Assembly: GCA_014896315.1 (NCBI GenBank)
Contig: JADBKP010000009.1
Location: 62,001-126,000, forward strand
Length of the DNA: 64,000 nucleotides
Direction of reading: 5' to 3'
Origin: Limnochordales bacterium
Lineage (GTDB): Bacteria; Bacillota; Limnochordia; Limnochordales; DUMU01
Shown: in pieces, positions 12,080 through 54,043 of the stretch
How the letters are laid out: the number at the start of each line of letters is the position of its first letter
Numbering within the stretch: position 1 is the stretch's first letter
The notes under the pieces: generated by a model
Databases searched by the model: none
Told to the model about the DNA's origin: nothing
Seen by the model: only the letters and a program-made list of their open reading frames with translations
Program-made: the position numbers and the translations under genes

Positions 12080-12796
12080 GTGGGTGTGGCTCTTAGTGTC
12101 CTCCTCACGGCCAGAGAGATCTCTGCCGCGCACATAGTCCAGGGAAAGGCGTTGGTCGCTGTGCTTGGAAACTTAATCGACGCACTTGTACATTTCGACA
12201 AGTACCTTGGAGGAATAGTGGAATCATACGGCACGGCAACATACGCACTGCTGTTTGCAATTATCTTCCTCGAGACCGGATTAGTTATCACTCCGTTTCT
12301 GCCGGGTGATTCGTTATTGTTTGCTGCCGGTGCCTTCGCGGGAATAGGATCTCTGAATGTGATTATTCTTTTGGTGCTTTTGTCAGCCGCAGCGATAATT
12401 GGCGATGCAGTTAACTATCATATCGGTAAAGCGATCGGCGAAAGGCTGTACAAATCTGAACAACGTCTTATTAAGAAAGAGTACATTGACGAAGCGCGCG
12501 TCTTCTACGAACGCTACGGGCCCATGGCAATCGTCCTTGGTCGTTTTGTTCCGATAATAAGGACATTTGTCCCGTTTGTTGCAGGAATCGGCCAGATGCG
12601 TTATTCGCGGTTTCTGGTGTACAATGCGCTGGGCGGCATTTGCTGGGTAGCCTTATTTACCCTGGGCGGTTACTACTTCGGTGGCCTGCAAATAGTGAAG
12701 GAGAATTTCGGTCTTGTAGCAGCGGCAATCATTGCTATCTCAGTAATGCCGGCTGTCATTACGTTTATCAGAACCAGGCGGGCCGCTTGCCGCTAG
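12080..12796 (+). CDS. DedA/SNARE-associated family membrane protein
   Basis: An integral membrane protein with the DedA signature: ETGLVITPFLPGDSLLF, then a helix pair around GDAVNYHIGKAIG, and GRFVPIIRTFVPFVAGIGQM, which carries the conserved FXRXXPXXR-like arginines. DedA proteins act in lipid transport or membrane proton-motive-force upkeep. The start is open: GTG 12080 is the longest choice, but the first 24-27 residues look unlike the family and a TTG or GTG near 12152-12164 behind AGGGAAAGG is plausible. Unlike its neighbours the gene uses many A- and T-ending codons (ATA, TTA, AAT), a composition shift that could mean recent acquisition. Confidence 0.85.
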   Translation: MGVALSVLLTAREISAAHIVQGKALVAVLGNLIDALVHFDKYLGGIVESYGTATYALLFAIIFLETGLVITPFLPGDSLLFAAGAFAGIGSLNVIILLVLLSAAAIIGDAVNYHIGKAIGERLYKSEQRLIKKEYIDEARVFYERYGPMAIVLGRFVPIIRTFVPFVAGIGQMRYSRFLVYNALGGICWVALFTLGGYYFGGLQIVKENFGLVAAAIIAISVMPAVITFIRTRRAACR

Positions 12797-12960
12797 AAGG
12801 CAGGCCGGCCGTTTCCCCTTTTGGACGGCCCTGTGACCTGACCCGCTTACCACCTCAAGTCCTGCCCGGTCCCCCTCGTTGATGTGGAATATTGTGCCAT
12901 TTGTGGGCGTGGGAAGTTCCACTGCAATAAATTGTCAGATACGCAGTACGAGTGGAAGTA

Positions 12961-12989
12961 TTGACAGGCTTGTACTATATACATAAAAT
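12961..12989 (+). promoter_or_regulatory. Sigma-A type promoter for the barrel-protein genes
   Basis: TTGACA at 12961-12966 and TAAAAT at 12984-12989 are 17 bases apart in an AT-rich island within GC-rich DNA. It lies about 70 bases before the first beta-barrel gene, with no other gene between. Confidence 0.7.
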
Positions 12990-13062
12990 ACAGACAAAAC
13001 TGACAGTGTTTTGCTGCCGTGGCTGATCGGACGGTGCTGACCAGCAGCAGGGGGTGAGCGGC

Positions 13063-14304
13063 GTGGACTTCTCGGGCGTCCTTCGGGTGCTGATCTACTC
13101 GTCTTTGGTCTTTCTGCCCCCGGCATTACTCCTACCTCCGACTGCAGGCGCCGCTTTTGAGCTGGCCTCTTCCACCCGGGATACCCGCGAGCAGTACGCA
13201 GGGAGCGGGTGGAGCGGCGAGCTGCGCCTGAGAGTGGATGGTTATGCTGGGAGATTACCGATTCCAGACGACGGTGTCAGCGATGCCATCCAGGATATCA
13301 GGCGGCGGGAGCTGCCGGCGGACGGTACGCAGATCGGTATCCGGCAGATGACACGGCTCCGGTGGGAGGTGGCTCCTACAAGCCTGTCCCGGCTACGCCT
13401 CACCTTGCGGAATTACGGTTACTGGGGGGTCGGCTATTACACGTCCGGAAGTTACGGCATCCGTTCCTTCACGGCCGACCCGTTTTCCATCGAGGAGTTG
13501 GCAGTTCAATTCCCGGTGGGGCGGGGGATGGTTTCGCTTGGTTCACAGTATTTCCAGCTGGGGTCGGTCGGACTTCTGGCCGCTACTCCCTTAAGTGAGG
13601 CCGAGGGGGTTGCCGTCCCCCTGACCCTGGGCATCTGGGAAGAAGCGGTCGACAGGCGGGTGCTCGCACTCCTTCTGGGGCGGGTGAAGACGGAATTTGA
13701 CGAGGAGTCCGGCCTCGTCGTGGCGGCGGATGATTACGCAGCCGTGCGGGTCGGGATTGCCGCAGACCAGTCCTTTTCGGGTCTGAACCTTCTTCTCAGC
13801 GGGAGGGGCGGCGAGCAGGGCATCTCCTGGGACCGGATCGACGCCGGCGGGTCGCGCCTGGAGATTGCTGTAGGGCGGGCCGGACCGGCCTCAGCCTGGC
13901 GGCTGGCCGGTTACGGGGAATGGCCCATACGGCGATGGCCGGGTTGGACGGTGCAGGTGGGGTACGTACAGGCGGGCTATCCCATCGGGTACGCTCAGCT
14001 GGCAGACCTTGGCGGCTCGCTGCCGCTTGCCTCGGGAGAGGCCATGGTGGGAGTCTCCGCGACCTTGCCCTCCGGATCATCCGCGGTCGGGCATGCGGCG
14101 GCTGCGGGGAGTGTGAGGAACGCGGCATGGATAGGAGCCTTGCGGGTTTACAGCGCTGGGGCAGGCGGACTCTCAGGCCAAGCGCGGCTGGGTTGGGAGG
14201 GAAGGGTGTGGCCCGGGGTGATGCTGCGAGCCGAATGGATCCAGTGGGCACTCGCGGCCGGTGGCTACGGCAGGGGACGGATTGACCTGGCATATCAGTT
14301 CTAG
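13063..14304 (+). CDS. Predicted outer-membrane beta-barrel protein 1
   Basis: GTG 13063 sits after GGGGGTGA; an in-frame GTG at 13054 is a second option. The product of about 413 residues has a hydrophobic export signal (to about residue 33) and then almost only short alternating strands with frequent Gly, Tyr, Trp and Arg, without any helix-rich domain. It ends in GRIDLAYQF: alternating hydrophobic residues with a terminal Phe, as in the signal read by BamA. I do not recognise a named family. A porin-like or structural barrel in an outer membrane is the simplest reading, and the following gene has the same architecture. Confidence 0.6.
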   Translation: MDFSGVLRVLIYSSLVFLPPALLLPPTAGAAFELASSTRDTREQYAGSGWSGELRLRVDGYAGRLPIPDDGVSDAIQDIRRRELPADGTQIGIRQMTRLRWEVAPTSLSRLRLTLRNYGYWGVGYYTSGSYGIRSFTADPFSIEELAVQFPVGRGMVSLGSQYFQLGSVGLLAATPLSEAEGVAVPLTLGIWEEAVDRRVLALLLGRVKTEFDEESGLVVAADDYAAVRVGIAADQSFSGLNLLLSGRGGEQGISWDRIDAGGSRLEIAVGRAGPASAWRLAGYGEWPIRRWPGWTVQVGYVQAGYPIGYAQLADLGGSLPLASGEAMVGVSATLPSGSSAVGHAAAAGSVRNAAWIGALRVYSAGAGGLSGQARLGWEGRVWPGVMLRAEWIQWALAAGGYGRGRIDLAYQF

Positions 14305-14330
14305 CCATGGCAGGAGGCAGGGGATGAGCG

Positions 14331-15506
14331 ATGAAGCGAGTCTCTTCCCATTTGCCGGCGTCGAGCTTGGGGGTGGTGATGTTGGGGGCGTTGACATTGC
14401 TGGCATCAGCCTTCTGCCATGCTGCACCTGCTGCACCTGCCCCCGGCAGGGCGGAAACAGAAGCGTCTCTGCCCGCCCTGACTCTCCGGCCGAGCGGCTG
14501 GTGGGAATGGGAGTATGCGTTTCGAACCGGCGAAGCTCCGTCGGTTACCCAGAAGCTGCACCTCGAGATGGCAGGGGCGGTAGCCCCGCAAATCCAGGGG
14601 AAGATCGTTTTTGAACACAAAGGAGTGTGGGGTGCGGGCGGGACGGGTCGAGTTGGGGGAACGGGACTGGTCGGGTCGCCCGTCTCCAGTCCTTTGCTGC
14701 GAACGAGCGAGGCGTATGTCGAGCTTCACCCCGGACAGCTCGAGGGGTGGGGCAGCTGGCGGCTGGGGAGGCTTCGATTTCAACTGGGCCCGGTAGGTTT
14801 GCTGAGCGCTAATCCCTTTGACGCCCTGGAGGGAGTGCACTGGCAGAAGAGCCGGAGCGATTGGTTGATTGAGGCCGTCTGGGCCCGTCTGGATACGAGT
14901 TACGTCACTTACCTGAACTACGTATACGACACGGACGAGTACGTGGCCATCCATGCCGGACGGGTGCTGGGCGGGGGGCAGACAGCGCAGGCGGGCATCA
15001 CGTGGTTGGCCGACGGCCTGGCGGGAGAGCGCGGGGTGGCGCTGGACTTTGCGGGGACGCTGACCGGCGGCCGGCGTCTGGTGATCGAGTTGGCCGGTTA
15101 TGAGGCCAGCCGGACTTCCTACGACTACCAGGGATGGGTGGGTGCGGCGGCGGCCAGCATCGATCTTTGGGTGGACGAGCGCCAGACGTTGAGCTTGACG
15201 GCGGCCTCAGTTCACCCGGGATTTACGCCAATGGCAAGCAACCTGCGCTCTGCGGGAGGCAGTATCCCCTTCTTCAACGGCAGTACGGGGGTGGAGCTTT
15301 ATGCCTCTCGTCTCATAAGGGTGGGTGCGGTCGGAGAGATAGAAGTGCGCCACCAGGTTCGCTGGGGGGAGCCCCTTTCGGAGCTGAGGCTTGGAGTTAC
15401 GGTGGCCGGGCCGGGGCCGGGGGTTTCCACCGGCAGATTGCAGTGGACGAGAAAGGGAGAAGTGACATCCATCAGCGGTTCAGCCGGTTTCCAGATGGCC
15501 TTCTGA
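14331..15506 (+). CDS. Predicted outer-membrane beta-barrel protein 2
   Basis: A 391-residue protein, ATG 14331 after a GGCAGGGGATGAGCG ribosome site, 26 bases behind the first barrel gene and so probably co-transcribed. A signal peptide runs to about residue 31 (cut near FCHAAPA). The mature part is strand-rich with aromatic girdle-like residues (WWEWEYAF, SYVTYLNYVYD) and glycine-rich turns, and the last residues are SGSAGFQMAF with terminal Phe. Both proteins contain a matching LGPVGLLSANPF or LGSVGLLAATPL segment about 150 residues in, which shows that they are paralogues. The function is unknown; a porin is possible. Confidence 0.6.
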   Translation: MKRVSSHLPASSLGVVMLGALTLLASAFCHAAPAAPAPGRAETEASLPALTLRPSGWWEWEYAFRTGEAPSVTQKLHLEMAGAVAPQIQGKIVFEHKGVWGAGGTGRVGGTGLVGSPVSSPLLRTSEAYVELHPGQLEGWGSWRLGRLRFQLGPVGLLSANPFDALEGVHWQKSRSDWLIEAVWARLDTSYVTYLNYVYDTDEYVAIHAGRVLGGGQTAQAGITWLADGLAGERGVALDFAGTLTGGRRLVIELAGYEASRTSYDYQGWVGAAAASIDLWVDERQTLSLTAASVHPGFTPMASNLRSAGGSIPFFNGSTGVELYASRLIRVGAVGEIEVRHQVRWGEPLSELRLGVTVAGPGPGVSTGRLQWTRKGEVTSISGSAGFQMAF

Positions 15507-15607
15507 TGACTTGACTCTGCTTTCAACCCTTGGGGTGCGGGAGCTCCGTGGCAAGGACGAGGTGCGGACAGTTACCGATACATAAGCCCGACAAGGAGGG
15601 GATCTCT

Positions 15608-16255
15608 GTGAAGCATCGGATTCGCACTGCCGTTTGGAGTCTGGCAGTTGGTGTCGTTGCCGTCCTGGCGTTTTCTGCTGGCGCGCTGGCCGGCCCGCTG
15701 ACCGGGGTCAAGATCACCGTTGATCCGGGGCATGGCGGCAGCGACCCCGGAGCGATCGGGCCGACCGGACTGCGGGAAGCCGATGTCAACCTTCGGGTGG
15801 GCACCGTGCTCCGCAACTGCCTGGTGGAGTATGGCGGGGCGACGGTGCAGATGACCCGGACCAGCGACGTCTACGTCAGCCTGGCGGACCGGGTGAACAT
15901 GGCCAACTCCTGGGGGGCTCATCGGTTCATCTCCGTGCACCACAACTCCTCCAGCGATCCCACCGTCAACGGTACAGAAACCTACGCCTACACCTACGGC
16001 AGCTCTTTGAGCTTTGACCTGCGCAACAAGGTCCATGCCCAACTGTTGGCCTGGGGAGGACTTCCCGACCGGGGCGCCCGGACGGCCAATTTCTACGTGC
16101 TCAGGTACACCAATATGCCGGCCATCCTCACCGAGGCGTCATTTATCTCCAACCCCTACGAAGAAGCCCGCCTCCGGGACGCCGGCTATACCTGGCGAGA
16201 GGGTTACTACATCTACAAGGGTATCGCCGATCATTTCGGCGTTCCGTATCAGTGA
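15608..16255 (+). CDS. N-acetylmuramoyl-L-alanine amidase (Amidase_3), secreted
   Basis: GTG 15608 follows ACAAGGAGGGG. A signal peptide of 29 residues (cut near ALAGP) precedes one Amidase_3 domain that fills the rest of the 215 residues. The zinc ligands His42 (DPGHGG), Glu57 (GLREADVN) and His111 or 112 (SVHHN) and the catalytic Glu176 (AILTEASF) are all present, so the enzyme should cut the amide bond between muramic acid and stem peptide. No wall-binding repeat is attached. Similar enzymes act in cell separation, spore cortex turnover or germination; which applies here cannot be told from the sequence. Confidence 0.9.
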   Translation: MKHRIRTAVWSLAVGVVAVLAFSAGALAGPLTGVKITVDPGHGGSDPGAIGPTGLREADVNLRVGTVLRNCLVEYGGATVQMTRTSDVYVSLADRVNMANSWGAHRFISVHHNSSSDPTVNGTETYAYTYGSSLSFDLRNKVHAQLLAWGGLPDRGARTANFYVLRYTNMPAILTEASFISNPYEEARLRDAGYTWREGYYIYKGIADHFGVPYQ

Positions 16256-16322
16256 ACGGACGGCCGCACGACCCGGCGCACGACCCGGCGACCGATAGCC
16301 GCCTGATAGCTGACTAGATGCA

Positions 16323-16349
16323 GTGAGGGGCTCCCGCACCCCTCATTTA
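16323..16349. terminator. Stem-loop between convergent amidase and SplB genes
   Basis: TGAGGGG (16324-16330) pairs with CCCCTCA (16339-16345) around an 8-base loop, followed by TTTAA. It lies between the two stop codons and may serve both directions. Confidence 0.5.
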
Positions 16350-16352
16350 AGG

Positions 16353-17564
16353 CTATACGATGTAGTCGAGAGTGGCCTCCGGAAATAGCCGGCGGAGGTG
16401 CTCGGTAAAGAACCGGGTGATCTCCTTGTAGGTTTCCCCGCCGTACACGTACTTGCCATAGCCAAACTGACCCCATTTCCACTTCCGCTGGCTTTCGTTC
16501 ATCTCGAGGGCGGTGGTTGGGTAGACTTCCAGGATCGTCTGCTTTGCCCTGGGCGTGAACCGGTGAGCCACGATCTCGAAGCGCAGGTCATTCTCAGGAG
16601 TAGTTCGGGGCAGCCTTGCCCTGATCTTTTCCAGTAGATCCGCATATTCCTTCTTCCAGCCGTCGTAGATGATCACAGGTGAGATGTGAAAACCAAGGGG
16701 ATACCCGGCCAGGGCTACCCTGGCTGCGGCATCCAGGCGTGCACTTACTGGTGGAACTGCTTTCTCAAACTGCCTCGCTACGGTCCTGGTGTTGACGGAG
16801 AACCGGATCCGAGTGTGGCCGTTGTGTGCCAGGCCGAGCAAGGGGTCAACGGCCGCAAACTTGGTGACAAAACGAAAACGGCCAAACTCGGAGCGGGCAA
16901 AGTGTTCAATAGCCGTACGCAGAGCATGACTCCAGTGTTCCACCGCTACCGGGTCGGAAGTGCACGAGCCGTCGAAGTAAGTTAACCGGGGGGCTCGTTC
17001 CCGGGCGTACCTGTCGGCAATGTCCAGGATCTCCGCAAGGTTCACGTAAATTCGGACGTATGGTCTGGTGCTCAGGTTGGTGTTGAGGTAACAGTAATGG
17101 CAATGGCCGGGACATCCAGTGGCGAGAGGTAGCGCGTAATCCGCTGAGGGCCTGGAGGTCTGGAAGGTTGTGCCCCGGCGCACCCCGACCACCAGCGTCC
17201 GCTTGGCTTCGAGGAACCGGCGGCGCGGCGTGCTGCCGGGCAGGCCCGTAATCCGATTGTGCGACCCTGCCATAAGGATAGGTAGCCCGGCGCTGAGTGC
17301 TTGTTCGTAAATCTTCTTGCCCAGCGGGTATTCCAGCGCCCGCGGTTCAAAGTAGACCCGGGAGGGGTTGAAGACGAAGGTAGCGGCGGTCCTGGTCTCT
17401 GCCACGGCCGTAGTCCTAGCCTCCGCCTCGGCCTCCACCTCAGCGTCCACCTCAGTCTCAGTCTCTGCCTGGGCTTCAGGCACCGCTTTTGCCTTAGTTC
17501 GCGCACCGGTCTCAATCCCGGTCTTAGCCTGGGTCTCGGTTGAAGAGTTGATCGATGATTCCAT
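16353..17564 (-). CDS. splB: Spore photoproduct lyase (radical SAM)
   Basis: SplB reverses the UV-induced thymine dimer of spore DNA during germination. The radical-SAM cluster motif CPGHCHYC has Cys151, Cys155 and Cys158, and the hydrogen-donor Cys201 lies in the family motif GSCTSDPVAVEH. HISPVIIYDGWKKEY and FTPRAKQTILEVYP are further hallmarks. The catalytic part begins near residue 62. Before it is an unusual tail of about 55 residues built from Glu, Ala, Thr and Lys (for example EAEAEARTTAVAETRTA), absent in typical members of about 340 residues; a later start cannot be excluded but no better ribosome site was seen. The gene implies a spore former. Confidence 0.92.
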   Translation of the reverse strand: MESSINSSTETQAKTGIETGARTKAKAVPEAQAETETEVDAEVEAEAEARTTAVAETRTAATFVFNPSRVYFEPRALEYPLGKKIYEQALSAGLPILMAGSHNRITGLPGSTPRRRFLEAKRTLVVGVRRGTTFQTSRPSADYALPLATGCPGHCHYCYLNTNLSTRPYVRIYVNLAEILDIADRYARERAPRLTYFDGSCTSDPVAVEHWSHALRTAIEHFARSEFGRFRFVTKFAAVDPLLGLAHNGHTRIRFSVNTRTVARQFEKAVPPVSARLDAAARVALAGYPLGFHISPVIIYDGWKKEYADLLEKIRARLPRTTPENDLRFEIVAHRFTPRAKQTILEVYPTTALEMNESQRKWKWGQFGYGKYVYGGETYKEITRFFTEHLRRLFPEATLDYIV

Positions 17565-53130: not shown

Positions 53131-53552
53131 GTGGGTCCGAACTGCGGCGCAGACCAGTACACGACACTACAAGAGATGGGGGTGGCCAGATCGCAAAGCC
53201 TGGGGAGTCAGGGGCGTCCGGCGAGATTGTCGGGTTCGCGGTCGGAGGGCCGGAGCGGGACGGTGACCCGGTCTACAAGGGGGAACTCTATGCGATCTAC
53301 CTGTTGCAAGGTTACCAGCGCCAGGGGTTGGGTCGACGCCTGGTCGCGGCCGTTGCGCAAGAACTCGTCCGCCGCGATCTCTGCTCCATGCTCGTCTGGG
53401 TCCTGGTCGACAACCCCGCCTGCGGTTTTTACGAGGCGCTTGGTGGCCGCCGGCTGCGTTCCCGGCCCATCACCATCGGTCCGGCGACCCTCGAGGAAGT
53501 GGCCTATGGTTGGCCCGATCTGCGGGCGGTGCGCTTCGCCGATTGGCCCTGA
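53131..53552 (+). pseudogene. 5'-truncated GNAT acetyltransferase
   Basis: A frame open from the stop of the hydrolase to 53552 encodes the C-terminal two thirds of a GNAT domain: EIVGFAVGGPERDG, GELYAIYLLQGYQRQGLGRRL (the acetyl-CoA loop QGLGRR is intact) and NPACGFYEALGG. The usual first strand and helix are missing and there is no ATG, GTG or TTG with a ribosome site before the acetyl-CoA loop, so this looks like a decayed gene. The 3' end overlaps the SASP gene on the other strand by 49 bases. Confidence 0.6.
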
Positions 53553-53848
53553 TCCTCTGCGATCACTTCCTTGCCCTGCTCGATCAGTTCTCTCACCATC
53601 TGGCCGCCGATTTTGCCGGCCTCCCGGACCGTGAGTTCATCGGGGTTTTGGAGATCGTCGTCGAGTCCGAGACGCTCGGCAACCTCCCATTTGAGTGCAT
53701 CCAGAGCGTCCTCTTGAGCGCTCGCACTGGCCCCGGCCTTGCGAACGCTCTCCCTCACCTTCCGTACTCCCGCCGCACCAGCAGCGGGCCCGTCGACACC
53801 AGGGTCGGGTGTGTTTCTGGTTGGCTCTTGATCGGCACCTGCCACCAT
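53504..53848 (-). CDS. Alpha/beta-type small acid-soluble spore protein
   Basis: Residues 48-95 match the alpha/beta SASP family that coats spore DNA and changes its UV chemistry: ALDALKWEVAERLGLD, including the GPR protease site region around Glu55, and ELTVREAGKIGGQMVRELIE. The N-terminal 45 residues (Pro/Gly/Ala-rich, then RKVRESVRKAG) and a basic tail make it longer (114 residues) than the usual 60-90. ATG 53848 follows GGAGGGGAGTT. The known partner of UV-altered DNA, SplB, is coded elsewhere in the window. I found no clear sigma-G promoter. Confidence 0.85.
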   Translation of the reverse strand: MVAGADQEPTRNTPDPGVDGPAAGAAGVRKVRESVRKAGASASAQEDALDALKWEVAERLGLDDDLQNPDELTVREAGKIGGQMVRELIEQGKEVIAEDQGQSAKRTARRSGQP

Positions 53849-54043
53849 AACTCCCCTCCAGGTGTGATGCTGTAAGCATATTGTCAGCATTAGTTTGACT
53901 GGCGTCCGGGGATGGGATTCCAGCAAATGGTGGATTGGCAGGGGAGATTTGCTCATAGTTGACAAGAGCTGGCCGGCATGGAGGAAGGTGCGCGGCTTTG
54001 GGCAAATAAACAGTAGAGACTCTCAAGGAAGGAGGTGGATCGG

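Follow-up and report, generated by a model that had tools for sequence, protein, structure and literature searches.

Two tandem genes of a Limnochordales bacterium, here called barrel A and barrel B, very likely encode outer-membrane barrels, and they share a conserved unit with the gene of a minimal amidase. The three genes lie in the window, by which we mean the whole 64,000-nucleotide stretch analyzed here (assembly GCA_014896315.1, contig JADBKP010000009.1, positions 62,001 to 126,000), on contig C20 of a host genome of 2.59 Mb with a G+C content of ~0.60 to 0.63. The amidase gene (15608-16255), absent from an earlier sequence-only reading of this DNA, belongs to the same conserved unit as the barrels. 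We have good confidence in a functional link between barrel and amidase, and we lean towards a fuller reading in which A and B, as outer-membrane barrels of an unnamed family, act as the partner of the adjoining amidase. This linkage is the interesting part of the work; that the host is diderm and sporulates is already known.

How division, sporulation, outer membrane and wall are coordinated in diderm Firmicutes is largely an open question, and one that bears on the origin of monoderm (Gram-positive) cells through outer-membrane loss. Outer membranes have been lost several times in the lineage of the diderm Firmicutes. A conserved barrel-amidase unit confined to genomes with an outer membrane offers a concrete pair for experiment. 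Our literature search on diderm Firmicutes, Limnochordia, amidases and barrels, which mostly excludes subscription papers, gave no recognizable description of such a pair by title, abstract opening or term counts, and the main text of a paper on the outer-membrane cluster (PMC5007114) has 0 mentions of 'amidase'.

Predicted fold of the paired genes

Barrel A (13063-14304, plus strand, 413 amino acids) begins with a GTG, with a further in-frame GTG at 13054, and is separated by 26 bp from the open reading frame (ORF) of barrel B (14331-15506, plus strand, ATG start, 391 amino acids). The sequence-only reading had described two tandem secreted, strand-rich proteins here, and its coordinates are right: both have hydrophobic N-termini that we judge by eye to be signal peptides, and they end in RIDLAYQF (A) and SAGFQMAF (B). 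The segment LGxVGLLxAxP that it had seen in both is indeed common to them, as LGSVGLLAATP in A (13558-13590, plus strand) and LGPVGLLSANP in B (14784-14816, plus strand). The paralogy that it proposed also holds. In BLASTP the two align over 237 columns with 27% identity (E 7e-10), and A is detected at E 1.5e-10 by a profile built from B-type sequences, so the resemblance is not due to chance.

AlphaFold2 models built from six-sequence alignments are meanders of 18 strands for B (mean predicted local distance difference test score, pLDDT, 56.2; predicted template modeling score 0.55; residues ~200-390 mostly 67 to 90) and of ~18 strands for A (56.0 and 0.51). Foldseek searches of the PDB give best E-values of 1.3e-3 for B and 1.6e-3 for A, and the top 50 matches of each are all membrane beta-barrels or complexes containing one, which agrees with the proposed barrel fold even at a mean pLDDT of only 56. 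By VIA-align, B is closest to OccK3 (Z 14.7, root-mean-square deviation 4.5, 229 residues aligned), followed by AlgE (14.6), Wzi (14.1) and OmpM1 (12.6), while A is closest to OpdQ (Z 15.9, deviation 4.7, 275 aligned) and AlgE (15.8). With so many barrel families tied in Z, these matches speak for a large membrane barrel and for nothing finer. Kinship with Wzi, MOMP, chitoporin or VDAC/Tom40 was not read into these matches, as their Z values are close to the others. Direct homology to a known barrel was rejected, since searches of PDB sequences with A and B profiles gave only chance-looking matches (a TOX HMG box at E 0.0014, an antibody chain, an amine oxidoreductase and CTC1).

Judged by sequence, A and B belong to an unnamed family of predicted outer-membrane barrels without a match in the copies of Pfam and NCBIfam searched. 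Neither protein matches either collection at E 1, and Pfam matches none of 28 aligned family members at E 0.01, in keeping with the earlier remark that the barrels match no recognized porin family. NCBIfam gives two weak single matches among the 28, to TIGR03016 (E 0.006) and TafF (E 0.0094), in one member each. The SLH domain characteristic of OmpM is found neither in A and B (Pfam, E 1) nor in the 28 members (E 0.01). Pfam likewise finds no Ig or S-layer domain in A, B or the 28 members, and no LytM (Peptidase_M23) domain in A, B or their relatives, the latter being a test of membership and not of working likeness. The C-terminal Phe is present in 28/28.

Among known barrels, the 18-stranded porins of the OprD/Occ and AlgE type (3szv, 3t24, 5d5d, 7acg) come closest to A and B by fold (Z 14.6 to 15.9, with 225 to 275 residues aligned) and have the number of strands predicted for them; they too end in Phe and are secreted, as A and B probably are. 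They differ from A and B in sequence (7 to 12% identity, with no Pfam or NCBIfam match for our pair) and in gene neighbors, and the likeness in fold is tied in Z with Wzi, MOMP, chitoporin and others. Veillonella OmpM1 (8bys), also an outer-membrane barrel of diderm Firmicutes, stands further off at Z 12.6 and Foldseek rank 27. SLH domains of Limnochordia OmpM are mentioned in the accessible part of PMC10628300, whereas A and B have no SLH domain that we could find and adjoin an amidase.

Conserved adjacency of barrel and amidase

The third gene of the unit (15608-16255, plus strand) encodes a secreted N-acetylmuramoyl-L-alanine amidase whose GTG start at 15608 is preceded by AAGGAGGGG. It matches Amidase_3 (PF01520, E 4e-49, 167.4 bits against a cut-off of 27) over residues 36-207 of 215, and thus comprises the catalytic domain alone, with no recognized targeting domain. 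The zinc/catalytic motif H...E...H...E passes a strict pattern here and in 27 of 36 amidase-profile matches overall (35 linked to barrels and one unlinked); the eight linked amidases that fail show variants of the motif by eye. Short Amidase_3 enzymes of Firmicutes such as CwlD have the same catalytic domain and a similar size, and CwlD is the best NCBIfam match of the linked amidases tested. Against the CwlD model TIGR02883 (cut-off 221.55), however, the window amidase scores 99.7 bits and the seven linked amidases tested score 86 to 123, so by that rule these enzymes are not CwlD.

We read 43 loci of the barrel family (the window, L010-L012, L096-L113 and L153-L173, having dropped L174, which a contig end cuts). 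An Amidase_3 ORF directly adjoins the barrel on the same strand in 34 of them, downstream in 29 and upstream in five, and the upstream amidases overlap the barrel by 4 nucleotides in four cases and by 1 nucleotide in the other. Eleven GTDB families are represented among the linked loci (f1, f10, f17, f23, f35, f47, f64, f97, f103, f117 and f127). The A-B-amidase arrangement occurs again in the host genome, on contig C14, and genome G237, from another family, also has two complete barrel-barrel-amidase units. In a FastTree phylogeny, A and B group respectively with the first and second genes of the G237 tandem pairs (support 0.74 and 0.99), which suggests that the tandem duplication probably predates the split between these families.

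The amidases themselves also hold together. A tree of 71 amidase domains places all 35 linked copies in one clade (support 0.79, both halves 1.00), separate from the order's other amidases; it contains one unlinked copy, and the remaining 35 unlinked copies fall outside. Around further Limnochordales amidases, in 18 stretches, no barrel unit was recognized alongside among the surroundings listed.

These data bear on a skeptical account in which A and B are ordinary porins whose operon also contains an unconnected housekeeping amidase, through inherited synteny and without joint function. In favor of this account, the tie between barrel and amidase is one of gene context, nine loci have no adjoining amidase, and a linked-type amidase in genome G001 (contig C4, L029/L058) has no barrel upstream of it. 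Set against this, adjacency is kept in 11 families even as barrel identity within the family falls to ~20%, it survives a flip in gene order, and the complete unit occurs twice in each of two genomes. We regard independent porins as a decidedly unlikely explanation.

Some loci vary this theme. Genome G002 (contig C23, L011:10552-12477) has two different linked-type amidases in a row behind a barrel pair. The second of these is 79% identical to the window amidase, against only ~34 to 38% identity between the barrels, which thus change far more quickly than the enzyme does. At two loci with the amidase upstream (L111:7639-8460 and L153:5185-6039), a small second ORF, secreted and strand-rich in appearance, lies behind the barrel.

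Distribution among outer-membrane genomes

We searched 398 genomes of the phylum with two profiles, with at most four candidates scored per genome, so negatives are not firm. The first profile (A5), made from four A-type and four B-type sequences, matches 29 genomes at E 0.01, 27 of which also pass E 0.001. The second (A6) is the 28-member alignment, partly built from matches that include weak ones; the inclusion of these weak sequences is supported afterwards by their amidase neighbors. This profile recovers barrel A at E 2.4e-99 and barrel B at E 5.0e-101, and it finds the family in 37 genomes at E 0.001. All of these carriers are among the 102 genomes with Omp85 (37/102 with, 0/296 without; Fisher 4e-25, a figure that overstates independence, as the genomes are related). 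They represent 12 GTDB families, or 11 without G357, whose match is weak (129 columns in a 1676-amino-acid frame, E 7e-5). Two A5 matches in genomes without Omp85 (G125, E 0.0065; G389, E 0.0027) were rejected, as they fail E 0.001 and are not found by A6. The family is also an outer-membrane marker for uncultured Bacillota that is not in the Pfam and NCBIfam copies searched.

The confinement of the family to Omp85 genomes argues against the notion that A and B are secreted beta-rich surface or S-layer-like proteins and not membrane barrels, as do the universal C-terminal Phe, the uniform set of membrane barrels among the top-50 PDB matches and the absence of Ig or S-layer domain matches reported above. 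What speaks for such proteins is that model confidence is modest and that localization is predicted only. We consider this explanation highly improbable.

Division, wall and spore genes near the unit

Genes for division, wall synthesis and sporulation recur around the barrels. In family f17 the order is ftsQ, DUF881, ftsZ, barrel, amidase, with ftsZ directly upstream of the barrel; Pfam confirms this in L101, and it looks the same by eye in L110, which has murA still further upstream. Families f109 and f35 have a Mur ligase gene close to the barrel (by Pfam in L104 and L109, by eye in the others). A gene for a small acid-soluble spore protein (SASP) adjoins the unit in 14 of the 43 loci. In 12 of these (f35, f109, f117) it precedes the barrel in the same orientation, and in two, L010 and L012 of f1, it lies convergently behind the amidase. 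Of two such sequences tested against PF00269, one matches at 1.5e-5 and the other at 2.2e-4, just below the cut-off. In the window, splB, for spore photoproduct lyase (16353-17564, minus strand), is convergent with the amidase and immediately behind it; as the sequence-only reading had named it, it scores 473 bits to TIGR04070 against a cut-off of 400.

The operon also has a sigma-70/sigma-A-like promoter upstream (TTGACA-17-TAAAAT, 12961-12989, plus strand). It agrees with the consensus at 11 of 12 positions, a match to consensus and no proof of use, and it is the sole match within 12797-16400; an equal score is reached in 5 of 2000 random 266-nucleotide stretches of the window. Promoter-like sites at other loci are mostly weak and are not common between loci.

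This neighborhood could be taken to mean that the unit is specific to sporulation, with barrel and amidase acting in forespore engulfment, in opening of the mother-cell wall and outer membrane, or in outgrowth of diderm spores. The distribution of carriers lends this some weight. Among the 102 Omp85 genomes, and leaving out G357, the family occurs in 35/79 with SpoIVA and in 1/23 without, the single exception being a genome that is 72% complete (Fisher 3e-4, uncorrected for relatedness and from a table read by hand). The SASP genes and the adjoining splB point the same way. On the other side, the window operon has a sigma-A-like promoter, the f17 unit comes after ftsZ, the linked amidases tested fall below the CwlD cut-off (for the window amidase, 99.7 against 221.55 bits), 44 of the 79 diderm spore formers sampled have no member of the barrel family, and the SASP cases come mostly from one barrel clade. 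Taken as a whole, ftsZ and the promoter point to vegetative cells while SASP, SplB and the SpoIVA bias point to sporulation, and a role restricted to sporulation seems unlikely.

How the barrel and amidase might work together

We propose that A and B would be folded by BamA into the outer membrane, where the barrel would be the outer-membrane partner of the amidase at the interface with the wall. It would position or activate the amidase at sites of joint remodeling of outer membrane and peptidoglycan, with the division septum, the sporulation septum and engulfment, and outgrowth as candidates. The mode of action would resemble that of NlpD and its amidase in E. coli, with a porin-like barrel replacing the LytM lipoprotein, in cells without a recognizable TolB. 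Of 60 genomes searched, a single one gave a TolB_N match, weak at 26.3 bits. The 60 were a subset of the Omp85 genomes, 39 of them having a clear or partial member of the barrel family and 21 none, and positive controls matched in E. coli, Caulobacter and Bacteroides.

In the part of PMC5533458 available to us, NlpD is presented as the outer-membrane partner of a periplasmic amidase in E. coli, and by analogy A and B may be comparable to the NlpD-AmiC and EnvC-AmiA,B systems as partners of an amidase. The components differ: NlpD is a lipoprotein with LytM and LysM domains whereas A and B are predicted barrels without them, and the window amidase has no AMIN domain.

Recruitment or activation of the amidase by the barrel is the mode that we tentatively favor, at something short of even odds. 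Our reasons are that the window amidase lacks a targeting domain and that genes for division, wall synthesis and sporulation turn up repeatedly nearby. Nearly as likely is that the barrel is a specific porin that passes the products of the amidase, peptides and glycans, out or in, with the amidase serving turnover or scavenging. By fold, the nearest matches are channels for specific substrates (OccK/OprD, AlgE, chitoporin, Wzi), and a G-P-x-G-L-L segment conserved in the family falls in model B within the loop that joins strands 5 and 6, at the site of the constriction loop in porins. Among the relatives, several (L104 and L106 for instance) also have short heptad-like N-termini, which resemble the stalks of trimeric porins. 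Yet the closest matches are tied in Z and single out no transport class, the G-P-x-G-L-L loop lies in low-confidence regions of the model, and we saw no recurring uptake or recycling genes beside the unit, where wall-synthesis, division and spore genes recur. A muropeptide channel is possible on these grounds, if doubtful.

Several observations weigh against the proposal that A and B are outer-membrane partners of the amidase. The tie between the two is one of gene context, and adjacency is in part inherited by descent. Porin-like folds suit channels as well as scaffolds. Mean pLDDT is low, the N-terminal half of the models is unreliable, and our strand-alternation statistic is weakly discriminating, with one lipoprotein control scoring like the barrels. 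The nine loci without an adjoining amidase are spread over f109 (three), genus g131 of f35 (three) and f13 (three, with weak barrel matches). Finally, carriers among Limnochordia are few (7/72 genomes, four clear and three weak), so neither diderm nor sporulating life requires the unit. The broadest form of our proposal is that the barrels and their dedicated amidase, joined in some lineages by SASP, ftsZ or Mur ligase genes, couple remodeling of outer membrane and peptidoglycan at the division or sporulation septum, in place of proteobacterial NlpD and Tol-Pal; we offer this as a speculative possibility.

In the three f13 loci (L154, L155, L156), all in Limnochordia, the neighbors of a distantly matching barrel are an MMPL/RND transporter and a LolA-like protein, as confirmed at L154 and judged by eye at the other two. 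These matches are probably another barrel type, and the set resembles a lipid-transport trio.

The host as a diderm spore former

The genes predict that the host is diderm and forms spores, as the sequence-only reading had suspected. A cluster on contig C3 holds BamA, OmpH, LpxD, LptF/G, LptC and LptA, and SpoIVA is found at E 9.7e-111. The BamA homolog matches Omp85 (PF01103, E 8.3e-56), has POTRA repeats and scores 293.7 bits to TIGR03303, slightly below the cut-off of 297.15. The earlier reading had named two outcomes that would refute it, a genome without BamA and a predicted fold other than a barrel, and neither came about. An LptD-like ORF is present in the cluster and gives weak matches only. 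For OmpM-type SLH proteins the outcome is mixed: SLH proteins exist, and the two found in the host have no recognizable barrel domain.

One SLH protein of the host (L026:4042-5793, contig C17) has 583 amino acids, a signal peptide, one SLH domain, a very long coiled coil and a C-terminal hydrophobic segment, with no barrel, and its gene lies near an ExbD/TolR-like gene. We take this layout to be like that of Thermotoga Omp-alpha, and the protein is possibly the host's outer-membrane spacer or tether in place of a classical OmpM.

Diderm spore-forming Limnochordia are known biology and such a host was to be expected. It is like Limnochorda, Geochorda and Carboxydochorda in class, outer-membrane cluster and spore genes, and the available portion of PMC11456536 describes cultivated Limnochordia as diderm. 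What sets it apart from diderm Limnochordia at large is the barrel family, clear in only 4/72 Limnochordia genomes.

Other genes of the window and of related loci

Upstream of the barrels and outside the conserved unit is a gene for a DedA-family membrane protein (12080-12796, plus strand; NF008102, 239 bits against a cut-off of 236). The sequence-only reading had listed a SASP in the window together with SplB; a SASP-like ORF is present, probably the one that was meant, though at ~53507-54022 on the minus strand it is far from the barrels. At a related locus, L011:12525-13841 was considered as SplB and rejected by the NCBIfam test, in which it has no match.

An automatic search around the units found no recurring homologous lipoprotein, and individual loci have lipoprotein-like genes of several kinds. 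In each of two distant families, a large protein of this sort with a CarboxypepD_reg domain is encoded divergently to the barrel operon (L010:6534-8123 and L102:993-2585, both minus strand), with smaller lipoprotein-like proteins at the same divergent position in L011 and L012. In f35, a secreted protein with a lipobox-like motif follows the barrel/amidase unit (L109:4608-5639 and L159:5002-6024, minus strand; L161:8130-9197, plus strand), and the two of these tested are DUF4493-like at E 0.003 to 0.007.

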